From the NCBI GenBank assembly GCA_014190015.1, contig BJFT01000008.1:1-43473 (forward strand): a DNA stretch of 43,473 bases. The letters run 5' to 3'. The translations under genes were made by a program, and so were the position numbers. The notes below the pieces were generated by a model that made no database searches, was not told the origin of the DNA, and worked only from the letters and a program-made list of their open reading frames with translations. This document shows, in pieces, positions 36,182 to 40,313 of this stretch; the stretch's first letter is position 1; each line of letters starts with the position of its first letter. This stretch comes from Actinomycetes bacterium (lineage in GTDB: Bacteria; Actinomycetota; Actinomycetes; Nanopelagicales; Nanopelagicaceae).

Positions 36182-37512
36182 TTCTTGATCTGACCTCGGC
36201 AACCATCTGTCTTAGGTTTTACTACTGGCTTCTTTGTTGGCTTAGGAGTTGGTGTCGTTAAAGCTTGCTCAATAGTTATGGTAATTGGTTGCGATGAAGT
36301 GGCGTGTGTTTCTGAGTTATCTTCAAAAACAATCGTTCCGTTCCAGACTCCGGCAGGTATTCCTGCAACCGAGAGAGTCCATGAACCGCTGGTTGCGCGT
36401 TCTGCTCTCTGCTTGAGAGAAACCCCCATTGGATTTGCTGGATCTTGAACAAACTTCACAGTGCCCGTTACTACTGGTTCGAGAGTTGGACGCATAACAT
36501 CGACATCAACAACTAGCGGTCGATTGGTATTACTAAAGGTCACAGATTTAATAGTCATAAAACTTGGTTCGCCTACAGGCATGAAATCTGCAGGCTCTGG
36601 TATCCATGAACCCTTGCGCAATGAAGCAAATGCATCAGGTGTTCCTCTAAATACATTGAGATCTAATCTGGAACCCGGCACCCCATACTTAGGTGCAATT
36701 CCACATGAGGTGTACTGCCACATAGTCCACTGTGCTTTGCAATTTGCTGCAGTCCATGAGTGCACATAACAACCACTATTTTTCATACCGGGATGATTTG
36801 TTGGCACCGCTGGATCGATTCCATATTGCGCTAGCCAGAGTGGGTATTGGGCTAATTCAGGACTGCGCTTCATTGAGCTTTCAAGAAAATTTGAGTACGA
36901 ATAAAGAATCGGCTTGCGTCCAGTTTTTTGCCAGATTTCACGTAAAAAAGTTTCAGACCACGTAGTCACAGTATTTCGCGATGCATATTTAGAGCAGCTG
37001 CCACTTGAACGGTATTGAACGCACTTATTTTCTATATCTAGTGCAACTGGAAGATCTTTTTCAGTTAAACCACCAATTGATGCAATGCGCCATAAAACTT
37101 TTTGTGCCTGTACTTGAGCATCTTTAATCACCAAGGTTTTTGTTGGCACATTAGGCAACACTGCGTAGTGATAAAAACCTGTATAGATACCTGCAGCGTG
37201 CGCTGCTTCACGATCAATCTTGAGCCACTTACGGGCAAGCGCGTCGGCTTCATCCCGAGTATCTGATCCCTTGATCATCACAAAATTTAAACCAGCTTCA
37301 CGCATCTTTTTAAAGTTAATGAGTTTTCCATTTGGATGCTGCCATCTACTGATGTCGGCGCCATGAATACGTGAGCCCGGTCCCTTTAATTCAATTGCCG
37401 CCAGAGGACCAGCGTCATTGATCACTGGAACTTCATTTGCATGGGCTGAAACAAAGCCATTTGAAAATACCGCAAAGAGTGCAATTGCAATGATCAGAGT
37501 TTTGTTTTTCAT
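36178..37512 (-). CDS. Secreted GH25-type lysozyme (muramidase)
   Basis: A 444-residue exported protein. The signal peptide runs to about VSAHA (residues 1-25). The glycoside hydrolase 25 domain has its acidic residues in GADISRWQHP (Asp53) and ALDIEN (Asp159, Glu161), plus YTGFYHYAV and WLAQYG typical of the barrel. Four or more cysteines may form disulfides. A C-terminal Ig-like domain and a Pro/Thr/Lys-rich tail (TPTPKPTKKPVVKPK) could bind or cross the wall. Likely cell-wall turnover. It overlaps the small upstream gene by four bases. Confidence 0.92.
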   Translation of the reverse strand: MKNKTLIIAIALFAVFSNGFVSAHANEVPVINDAGPLAAIELKGPGSRIHGADISRWQHPNGKLINFKKMREAGLNFVMIKGSDTRDEADALARKWLKIDREAAHAAGIYTGFYHYAVLPNVPTKTLVIKDAQVQAQKVLWRIASIGGLTEKDLPVALDIENKCVQYRSSGSCSKYASRNTVTTWSETFLREIWQKTGRKPILYSYSNFLESSMKRSPELAQYPLWLAQYGIDPAVPTNHPGMKNSGCYVHSWTAANCKAQWTMWQYTSCGIAPKYGVPGSRLDLNVFRGTPDAFASLRKGSWIPEPADFMPVGEPSFMTIKSVTFSNTNRPLVVDVDVMRPTLEPVVTGTVKFVQDPANPMGVSLKQRAERATSGSWTLSVAGIPAGVWNGTIVFEDNSETHATSSQPITITIEQALTTPTPKPTKKPVVKPKTDGCRGQIKN

Positions 37513-37775
37513 GCCAACTCTTCAATCACAACATCAAGCCCAAAAACTTCGTTAATTGCAGAAGCAAGAACCTCTTTATGTTTTGGTCGCACCGCTTGAT
37601 ATTCGTGACTTGATGCAAACTTACGTGCATCTGAGAAATCTAAAGTCAGCACGTTGTTCTCAAAAGACGCAAGACGAGCATCGAAGAAAACCAACCAAGC
37701 TATTCGATCGTTGGATTCGAGCAGGTCTAATACTTCATTCCACCTAGAACGAAGAGTGCCCAGATCGGTATCCAT
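37509..37775 (-). CDS. Short protein resembling the C-terminal domain of DNA polymerase III tau/gamma
   Basis: An 88-residue soluble protein. The pattern LRSRWNEVLDLLESNDRIAWLVFFD, then FENNVLTLDFSDARKF, then AINEVFGLDVVIEEL, resembles the small alpha/beta domain found near the end of actinobacterial DnaX. Here it stands alone without the AAA+ clamp-loader part. The resemblance is by eye only. TATCGT lies seven bases before the ATG, so the start looks leaderless. Its stop overlaps the GH25 start (ATGA), so translation is coupled to a secreted lysozyme, an odd pairing. Confidence 0.7.
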   Translation of the reverse strand: MDTDLGTLRSRWNEVLDLLESNDRIAWLVFFDARLASFENNVLTLDFSDARKFASSHEYQAVRPKHKEVLASAINEVFGLDVVIEELA

Positions 37776-38097: not shown

Positions 38098-38943
38098 CTA
38101 TTTAAGAATTTGGGAGATAACTGAGCGTAACTCAGGAATTATTGATTCAGCAGAAATCGGTCCACCGCGTGATGCGCTCTTTGCTGCGTTTGCATGGATT
38201 AATGCAGCCGTTGCAGCCAGTGAAGCCAAGTAATTTGAATCATTTAATACTTCGATGAGATGTGTAGCAACTAATGCTCCGAGAATTCCTGCAAGAACAT
38301 CACCGGTTCCTGCTGCTGCAAGCCATGGCGTTGCGACAGGAAGTTCGATTAATTCTGATTCATTTGCAACGTATGTGCGTGATCCTTTGAGAAGTACTGT
38401 CACGCCCAAAGTTTTTGCAGCAGTCATTGCCCACTTCTTTGGATTACCTTCGATTGCTTCGGCTGTCACCGAAACTCCACGTGAATTAAGCAAACGTGCG
38501 AGTTCGCCACTGTGGGGTGTAATCACTGTTGGTTGTTCAAGTTGTCCTGCCAATTTCAAAGCACCAGCATCTAGCACCGTTGGTACTCCTTGAATTTTTA
38601 ATGATTTGAAATTGCGATAACGAATCCAAGTAGTAAGTGAAGAGTACTTACGCGCATCTATGCCTGAACCAACTATCCATGCAGAGACATTTCCTGGATG
38701 ACATACAACAGAAGGAGTCTGGTGTAGTACTAAATGATCAAGACCGCTGGATGCATAAAAGCGAATCATTCCTACACCTGTTGCAGCTGCAGCCGAAGTT
38801 GTAAGAACTGACGCACCTGGATATTGCGCAGAACCAGTAATTACGCCAAGTACTCCGCGCGAATATTTGTTATCGAGATCGCTAGGAACAGCGATGCACT
38901 TCTTTGCATCTTTAGTGCTCCATTTTTTAACAACTGTTGTCAT
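38098..38943 (-). CDS. nnrD: ADP-dependent (S)-NAD(P)H-hydrate dehydratase
   Basis: Repairs damaged hydrated NAD(P)H using ADP. The 281 residues cover only the YjeF C-terminal, ribokinase-like domain: KYSRGVLGVITGSAQYPGA, TPHSGELARLL, VLLKGSRTYVA and the catalytic GTGDVLAGILGALV. The epimerase (YjeF N) domain present in many bacterial fusions is missing and no separate epimerase is in the window. The ATG at 38943 lies one base after the mature end of tRNA-Met on the same strand, with no Shine-Dalgarno, so its mRNA probably comes from tRNA processing. Confidence 0.93.
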   Translation of the reverse strand: MTTVVKKWSTKDAKKCIAVPSDLDNKYSRGVLGVITGSAQYPGASVLTTSAAAATGVGMIRFYASSGLDHLVLHQTPSVVCHPGNVSAWIVGSGIDARKYSSLTTWIRYRNFKSLKIQGVPTVLDAGALKLAGQLEQPTVITPHSGELARLLNSRGVSVTAEAIEGNPKKWAMTAAKTLGVTVLLKGSRTYVANESELIELPVATPWLAAAGTGDVLAGILGALVATHLIEVLNDSNYLASLAATAALIHANAAKSASRGGPISAESIIPELRSVISQILK

Positions 38944-38944
38944 G

Positions 38945-39018
38945 TGGGGCGGGTCGGGCTCGAACCGACGACGACGGAATTATGAGTTCCGGGCTCTAAC
39001 CAACTGAGCTACCGCCCC
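38945..39018 (-). tRNA. tRNA-Met (CAT), probably elongator
   Basis: On the minus strand: acceptor GGGGCGG/CCGCCCC, D-arm with AGTTGGTTA, anticodon stem CGGAA/TTCCG, loop CTCATAA (anticodon CAT at 38982-38984), T-arm with GGTTCGAGCC, discriminator A, no encoded CCA. The D-arm and ACTCATAAT loop resemble elongator Met; an Ile tRNA with modified CAT anticodon cannot be fully excluded. A TAAGAT a few bases upstream is a plausible -10. Confidence 0.93.
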
Positions 39019-39048
39019 TTCACTGCTGTTGAATCTTACTTTTAATTC

Positions 39049-39354
39049 TTAATCCCTAGAAATTCCGCGCCTGCCCAGGTATTCCCAAATACCCATTACG
39101 CCAAGAATTAAGGCAAAACCAAAGAGCAGATCTTCAGCCGGTGCAGATGCTATTCGAAGTCCGAATATTGCATCAGGGCTATACATAACTATATTTCGAG
39201 AAGTTAGCCACCAATTAGTTAGTAATTGAAATGGCAAGATGATTGCATAAGAAGCCCAAAATGCACGGCGCTTTAAAAGCGGTTGGCTGGACACAGTTAA
39301 ATCAATAATGATTGCAATGATTGCCGCAGCAATTGCGATTTGGCTATATGTCAT
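39049..39354 (-). CDS. crtYd: Lycopene cyclase domain protein (CrtYd-type subunit)
   Basis: A 101-residue membrane protein with three hydrophobic helices and the lycopene-cyclase-domain signature SAPAEDLLFGF. Actinobacterial carotenoid cyclases of this kind are heterodimers of two small homologous subunits. This is the downstream one and overlaps its partner by 11 bases. It cyclises lycopene ends, giving beta-carotene or C50 end groups; beta-carotene would be the precursor of retinal for the heliorhodopsin at 17 kb. No other crt genes are here. Confidence 0.9.
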   Translation of the reverse strand: MTYSQIAIAAAIIAIIIDLTVSSQPLLKRRAFWASYAIILPFQLLTNWWLTSRNIVMYSPDAIFGLRIASAPAEDLLFGFALILGVMGIWEYLGRRGISRD

Positions 39355-39676
39355 AGCGCTGCTTCCAATGCTTATTTACTGTGGTGACAGCTTCGATTGT
39401 CATTAGCGCAGCGAGCGGAATTATGGTGAAAAAGAGAAATTCTTCGAGAGGAATATCAAATGGTCCGTAGATGCCGAGTGTTTGCTTGCGATCAAAAAAC
39501 CAGTGACCTTGCTTGATTGCGTAAGCATCCCAAATTAAAAAGAGCAGCGAAACTGGTGCAATGCTCAGGGCAGCTCTTTTAATTCGGCGGAGTACGCCAA
39601 CTTTAAGGACAATTTCTAGCCAGAATGATCCGCAGATCACAAAGAGCAACATCGCCATGTATGAAAACTTGAGCAC
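39344..39676 (-). CDS. crtYc: Lycopene cyclase domain protein (CrtYc-type subunit)
   Basis: I chose GTG 39676 (110 residues) because GAGAAG lies seven bases upstream. TTG 39682 and ATG 39658 are alternatives; the long frame to 39769 runs into the divergent peptidase gene and is unlikely. Three membrane helices and the motif FDIPLEEFLFF identify the first half of the split lycopene cyclase. The ATG of crtYd lies 11 bases inside its 3' end, so the subunits are translationally coupled and made in equal amounts. Confidence 0.88.
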   Translation of the reverse strand: MLKFSYMAMLLFVICGSFWLEIVLKVGVLRRIKRAALSIAPVSLLFLIWDAYAIKQGHWFFDRKQTLGIYGPFDIPLEEFLFFTIIPLAALMTIEAVTTVNKHWKQRYDI

Positions 39677-39703
39677 ATACAATCTTCTCACAAGGTGATG
39701 CGA

Positions 39704-39709
39704 TAACCT
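39704..39709 (+). promoter_or_regulatory. -10 hexamer of leaderless M23-peptidase promoter
   Basis: TAACCT is seven bases before the ATG at 39717. The intergenic space shared with divergent crtYc is only about 40 bases. Confidence 0.55.
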
Positions 39710-39716
39710 CGGCAGT

Positions 39717-40313
39717 ATGTTTAGACGCACTGCATTAATCGTTGCAATATTGCTCACAGCCACCATCACCCCTGCGGTGGCAGCTCCGAACTATGTGTTT
39801 CCAGTCCCTGATTGCAAGGTCAACTATGCACGTGCCCACCACGATTATCCGGCCACCGATATTTTGGCTAATAAAGGGTGCAAGTTTGTTTCACCCGTTG
39901 AAGGCGTCGTTGATGAAGTAAATCGCACAGATAACTGGAGCGGTAAAACTAATTTAGGTATTGATCGTGGGGGATTGTATGTCTCCGTGATTGGCACAGA
40001 TGGAGTGCGCTATTACGGATCACACTTGCGCACAATTGTGAGAAGCATCGAGCCTGGTGTGGCAGTTAAGGCAGGACAAATACTTGGAACAATTGGAAGC
40101 ACCGGCAGCGCTCGCGGAACTGCGCCACATCTTCACTTTGGAATTTCTTGGCCAACACCATCACAACCAAATGTATGGTGGGTACGTCGCGGAGTTGTAT
40201 TGCCGTGGAAGTATTTAGAAGCATGGAATCAAGGAAAAGATTTATCTCCTGCAAAAGCTGTTGCTGCCCAATTAGCAAAAGTTGGCGAGATTCCGCCACC
40301 GCCTAAAAAATAA
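39717..40313 (+). CDS. Secreted M23-family (LytM-like) metallopeptidase
   Basis: A 198-residue exported endopeptidase. A signal peptide ends near PAVAAPN (residue 23). The catalytic zinc motif is complete: HHDYPATDI (His and Asp ligands) and HLHFGIS. Between them the beta-sheet core contains the G-V-V-D-E-V and GSTGSARGTAPHLHF segments. It likely cuts peptide cross-links during wall growth. Two cysteines (DCKVNY and GCKF) flank the first zinc ligands and could form a disulfide. A strong terminator follows. Confidence 0.93.
   Translation: MFRRTALIVAILLTATITPAVAAPNYVFPVPDCKVNYARAHHDYPATDILANKGCKFVSPVEGVVDEVNRTDNWSGKTNLGIDRGGLYVSVIGTDGVRYYGSHLRTIVRSIEPGVAVKAGQILGTIGSTGSARGTAPHLHFGISWPTPSQPNVWWVRRGVVLPWKYLEAWNQGKDLSPAKAVAAQLAKVGEIPPPPKK

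Follow-up and report, generated by a model that had tools for sequence, protein, structure and literature searches.

The closest described arrangement is the tRNA punctuation of mammalian mitochondrial DNA, in which the excision of tRNAs from a shared transcript creates mRNA 5' ends that lie at the start codon or about one base away; the resulting mRNAs are leaderless and carry a 5' phosphate. A tRNA gene placed directly 5' of a protein gene is also known from Escherichia coli, where thrU-tyrU-glyT-thrT-tufB forms one transcript and the tufB leader contains a Shine-Dalgarno site. An earlier description of tRNA punctuation in bacteria was not found in a literature search that left most subscription journals outside its scope.

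Two further bodies of work bear on the locus described here, and both concern Actinobacteria. In a dRNA-seq study of Cutibacterium acnes, cuts inside an encoded CCA are reported to fall 'always between the Cs', which according to its authors had been undescribed in bacteria until then; C. acnes is stated to lack an obvious tRNase Z, and the responsible nuclease, unknown to the authors, was thought possibly to act on tRNAs without CCA as well (PMC3848588). The same between-Cs cuts are given for most of the 12 CCA-encoding tRNAs of Streptomyces coelicolor (PMC4681348). Leaderless mRNAs, known from actinobacteria such as Mycobacterium (PMC4633059), open directly with the start codon. They need a 5' phosphate, and their translation declines as 5' bases are added and the start codon moves away from the 5' end (PMC9031893).

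The window, meaning the whole stretch of DNA analysed here, is 43,473 nucleotides long and comes from a member of the Nanopelagicaceae. Its minus strand carries, in this order, a tRNA-Met(CAU) gene (39018-38945), a single C (C38944) and the ATG of nnrD (38943-38941), in the following surroundings:

39344..39769, minus strand: second lycopene-cyclase-domain gene (PF18916 / TIGR03462)
39049..39354, minus strand: lycopene-cyclase-domain gene, a possible source of read-through (PF18916 / TIGR03462)
39033..39038, minus strand: TAAGAT, a -10-like promoter hexamer (TANNNT class) of the tRNA, kept in species G069 and G014 (alignment)
39019..39032, minus strand: 14-nt spacer from the -10 box to the tRNA 5' end, diverged between species, unlike the tRNA-nnrD junction (alignment)
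38945..39018, minus strand: tRNA-Met (CAU), CCA not encoded (ARAGORN; RF00005, 65.8 bits; acceptor pairing)
38944..38944, minus strand: C74, the encoded first base of the CCA position (C74 counts in tRNA genes)
38098..38943, minus strand: nnrD, ADP-dependent NAD(P)H-hydrate dehydratase, 281 aa, its ATG adjoining C74 (ORF, PF01256, N-terminal alignment)

In the acceptor stem the 5' GGGGCGG pairs with CCGCCCC, which places the discriminator at A38945. That the nnrD ATG stands one base after the tRNA on the same strand, as first noted from the bare sequence, is thus borne out by ARAGORN, acceptor pairing and the ORF (38943-38098; 126 bits to the NAD(P)H-hydrate dehydratase family PF01256). As in mitochondrial punctuation, the start codon lies within 1-2 bases of the 3' end of a same-strand tRNA; unlike there, the organism is a free-living actinobacterium, only some genes are involved, and C74 is encoded and retained. 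Like E. coli tufB, nnrD directly follows a tRNA, but it does so without a Shine-Dalgarno leader. We propose, at a probability of roughly 0.7, that the tRNA and nnrD are co-transcribed, that a nuclease other than RNase Z cuts the transcript after C74 to leave a leaderless nnrD mRNA, and that the same device is reused across the genus. It is probably a bacterial variant of mitochondrial tRNA punctuation in which a putative other nuclease replaces tRNase Z.

The position of the cut is suggested by the tRNA genes themselves. In five genomes of the genus (this one, with tRNA loci L071-L097, and G014, G015, G063 and G075), 183 of the 184 tRNA genes encode C74, the exception looking like a pseudo-tRNA. 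About three quarters of these genes have no encoded CCA, and C74 is present in 136 of the 137 that lack it; base 75 of the CCA-less genes is freely A, G or T and rarely C (6/137). Five other Actinomycete genomes gave C74 in all 49 sampled tRNAs, most of them without CCA. This near-invariance means that C74 is part of the tRNA gene and that the start codon begins at base 75. Since C74 is kept in genomes both with and without RNase Z, it is not simply an RNase Z substitute. The encoded C74 that goes with actinobacterial processing after this base is therefore found here, and, going beyond the C. acnes and S. coelicolor data, its retention now extends to tRNA genes that have no CCA.

RNase Z (TIGR02651) finds nothing better in this genome than 29 bits to a ComEC-like protein (777-codon frame), the hits of PF12706 are limited to that protein and an RNase J, both named from their own sequences, and in G014, G015, G063 and G075 (99% complete) the best RNase Z matches reach 20-30 bits or are absent; other Actinomycetes (G038, G039, G052 and G054) score 245-282 bits with TIGR02651. 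With no credible TIGR02651 match in the five genus genomes, and none to PF12706 in this one beyond those two proteins, tRNase Z was rejected as the cutting enzyme, and the sequence-only reading, which had named it, is probably wrong on this point. Of the canonical RNase Z pathway for CCA-less tRNAs, the rnz gene is thus missing and the CCA-adding enzyme is present (TIGR02692, 728 bits, C27:6179-7567). Mitochondria use ELAC2/RNase Z, which is absent here; C. acnes is reported to share the absence of tRNase Z (PMC3848588), and S. coelicolor differs from this genome in having a homologue.

An RNase Z-type cut right after the discriminator would yield a C-AUG mRNA with a one-base leader, whereas a cut after C74 would let every tRNA-C-ATG junction give an mRNA that starts with AUG. 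The geometry fits the discriminator cut equally well, and this is where canonical RNase Z cuts in most bacteria (PMC10673834). However, none of the five genus genomes, of which four are 99% complete, yields a detectable RNase Z, and both the invariant C74 and the cuts mapped after C74 in related bacteria, which come from other orders and mainly from CCA-encoding tRNAs, point one base further; we regard a discriminator cut as unlikely. The 5' end of the nnrD mRNA is accordingly expected at 38943, and the earlier placement at 38944 is probably mistaken. A cut after C74 would resemble the processing in C. acnes and S. coelicolor, likewise Actinobacteria (PMC3848588, PMC4681348). The passages of those two accounts that describe the cut make no connection with mRNA 5' ends; in the present genome the presumed cut coincides exactly with start codons.

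The arrangement had been treated as a single locus and turns out to be a pattern of the genus. In the tRNA neighbourhoods of this genome and of the four single-contig genus genomes G014, G015, G063 and G075, a single base separates the discriminator from a start codon (offset 1) behind five tRNAs of this genome; with loci from other species included, eight gene families of the genus show this spacing:

Met to nnrD, offset 1, this genome
Ala-TGC to cyclophilin, offset 1, this genome
Ala-GGC to SDR (short-chain dehydrogenase), offset 1, this genome
Gln-TTG to an NTP transferase, glmU-looking, offset 1, this genome
Leu-CAA to an ANTAR response regulator, offset 1, this genome
Ala-GGC to a class I tRNA synthetase, leuS-like, with GTG start, offset 1, G063 and G075
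Arg-TCT to an orn-like gene (named by eye only), offset 1, other species of the genus
Leu-GAG to an apt-like gene (named by eye only), offset 1, other species of the genus

Across the five genomes, 13 start codons of long ORFs fall at offset 1 and none at offset 0 or 2; offsets 3-13 hold three starts in total, all at 3-4, with 5-13 empty, and offsets 14-80 hold a mean of 0.94 starts each. The peak at offset 1 has a nominal Poisson P of 3e-11 and, because orthologues are not independent, was also collapsed to anticodons, which gives 0.002. Start codons at offset 1 are more frequent than chance.

A widely conserved case is tRNA-Leu(CAA)-C-ATG-response regulator: of 30 species, 25 have the ATG in frame at offset 1. 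These species are related, and the counts are not independent events. The N-terminal extension before the core of the offset-1 response regulators is 3, 4, 5, 6, 9, 11, 12, 13, 14 or 15 residues long. A start that stays fixed against the tRNA while the length of the protein N-terminus varies speaks for selection on the distance between tRNA and start codon. In four of the five exceptions the leader is several tens of bases long and contains a purine-rich, Shine-Dalgarno-like stretch. In the fifth, L380 (G001:C17), the offset-1 ATG opens a seven-codon ORF that ends at TGA and shares its frame with the response regulator; either a mutation or a fault in the assembly accounts for this short ORF, or it encodes a leader peptide.

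Such spacing might in principle reflect compaction only, with start codons pushed against C74 as the last required tRNA base, the precise cut having no role and occasional precursors, or 5' ends of unrelated origin, being used to express nnrD. The genome is small (1.25 Mb), and the exact nnrD junction occurs in two of the sampled species only, this one (G000) and G069. Compaction nevertheless predicts a run of short offsets, at odds with the 13 starts at offset 1, the three at 3-4 and the empty positions 2 and 5-13; it also leaves the tRNA-Leu/response-regulator offset to be kept in 25 species despite the changing N-terminus. Moreover, the bases directly 5' of the nnrD ATG belong to the tRNA, so no Shine-Dalgarno site is possible there. 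We hold this explanation to be slightly less probable still than a discriminator cut. In a related version, C74 could be retained for RNase P or another tRNA contact, offset 1 then being the limit of compaction.

Between the two species that share the nnrD junction, the first 19 bases after C74 differ at one position and the 14-nt 5' leader of the tRNA has diverged. In G031, tRNA-Met is also followed by nnrD, but with a longer leader carrying an SD-like AAAGG. A class-wide scan for a tRNA T-arm followed by CATG returned mostly coding-like matches in GC-rich genomes, and none of the loci it gave could be confirmed as a tRNA-C-ATG junction outside the genus; a search for related loci with the nnrD alignment reached mostly distant genera and was uninformative on the junction.

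The likely source of the nnrD transcript is indicated by the distribution of promoter boxes. TANNNT hexamers are enriched 7-19 nt 5' of tRNA starts (184 tRNAs, five genomes), and the nearest such box 5' of nnrD is the TAAGAT of the tRNA; none lies between it and the nnrD ATG, that is, in the 88 nt before the ATG. The nnrD transcripts therefore likely arise from the tRNA promoter or through transcription running in from upstream. The nearer lycopene-cyclase-domain gene ends 30 nt 5' of the tRNA on the same strand; the start of the second (39344..39769) probably lies inside the frame opened by the longest-ORF GTG, to judge from a shorter orthologue at L040. Most relatives have a box of their own for nnrD: 10 of 17 nnrD orthologues in the genus have TANNNT 6-7 nt before the ATG, and four have an SD-like site instead. 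This spacing would make the start codon the transcription start. The same peak at 6-7 nt is seen window-wide, with 11 of the 68 candidate starts there and about 0-2 at each other spacing, and leaderless mRNAs are, judged by it, common in this genome. The box in the relatives implies that nnrD was already leaderless; in this species and G069, the tRNA occupies the former place of the nnrD promoter.

A dedicated promoter inside the tRNA gene, starting a leaderless transcript at the nnrD ATG, would match the leaderless boxes of those relatives, but the only place for its -10 element is the GC-rich T-arm/acceptor and TANNNT is missing throughout the 88 nt; we rejected it for want of this box and find it very improbable. 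The known actinobacterial leaderless 5' end is a transcription start and bears a triphosphate, whereas the one proposed here would arise by tRNA processing and bear a monophosphate.

An nnrD start further downstream, or internal initiation on a long mRNA, gained no supporting point and is scarcely credible, because the next in-frame ATG is codon 59, downstream of the conserved KYSRGVLG motif. The motifs 5' of codon 59 are invariant in an alignment of 13 orthologues, residues near KKW and the KCI motif are conserved among orthologues, and on this N-terminal alignment a later start codon was rejected. Upstream of the ATG, no in-frame ATG, GTG or TTG occurs up to the nearest stop. The ATG at 38943-38941 is thus the only plausible start.

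We propose that the tRNA-Met and nnrD would form one transcript from the tRNA promoter (-10 TAAGAT, 39033-39038), possibly joined by transcripts that run through from the lycopene cyclase genes. The tRNA 5' end would be generated by RNase P, and a putative 3' endonuclease other than RNase Z would separate C74 from base 75 (38944/38943). Upstream of the cut this would leave a tRNA ending in A73-C74, to be completed by the CCA-adding enzyme, and downstream of it an nnrD mRNA beginning with 5'-phosphate-AUG and translated as a leaderless mRNA; several other genes of this genome and genus may be served by the same device. The suggestion that tRNA maturation could give nnrD a leaderless 5' end without a separate promoter is in this respect well supported by the comparative evidence. 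More broadly, it seems somewhat more likely than not that C74 and base 75 are parted by a widespread endonuclease other than RNase Z, that Actinomycete tRNA genes encode C74 for this reason, and that this compact lineage, by setting start codons exactly at base 75, has turned the cut into a general mRNA-start device coupling gene output to tRNA maturation. If true, tRNA punctuation would extend beyond organelles and provide a way to make leaderless mRNAs that dispenses with a dedicated promoter, and an obligatory encoded C74 would offer a reason for the between-Cs cuts in CCA and for the absence of tRNase Z in some actinobacterial lineages. Since the start codons mark the required cut site, the search for the missing 3' endonuclease becomes directly testable.

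Several smaller observations accompany this locus. The genome has three CAU tRNAs, namely the window copy, L085 and L086 (initiator type); one of the non-initiator copies is presumably tRNA-Ile(CAU), which makes the tRNA-Met label of the window copy less than certain. Just after the first base of nnrD, a hairpin, UGACAACAGUUGUUA, lies within codons 1-6 (window 38925-38943, minus strand) and is largely kept in G069; this small 5' hairpin in the coding region could hamper leaderless initiation or otherwise influence it. In G014 (single contig, 99% complete) nnrD is apparently missing (0 matches), although the tRNA-Met persists there behind the same promoter (L041). In other Actinomycete families (L029-L038) nnrD matches fall mostly in open frames some 400-650 codons long, the size that nnrE-nnrD fusions should have, and in the genus nnrD stands alone. 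Elsewhere in the window, an 88-aa ORF (37509-37775, minus strand) between a small LuxR-type HTH gene and a GH25 gene weakly resembles the gamma/tau subunits of DNA polymerase III.
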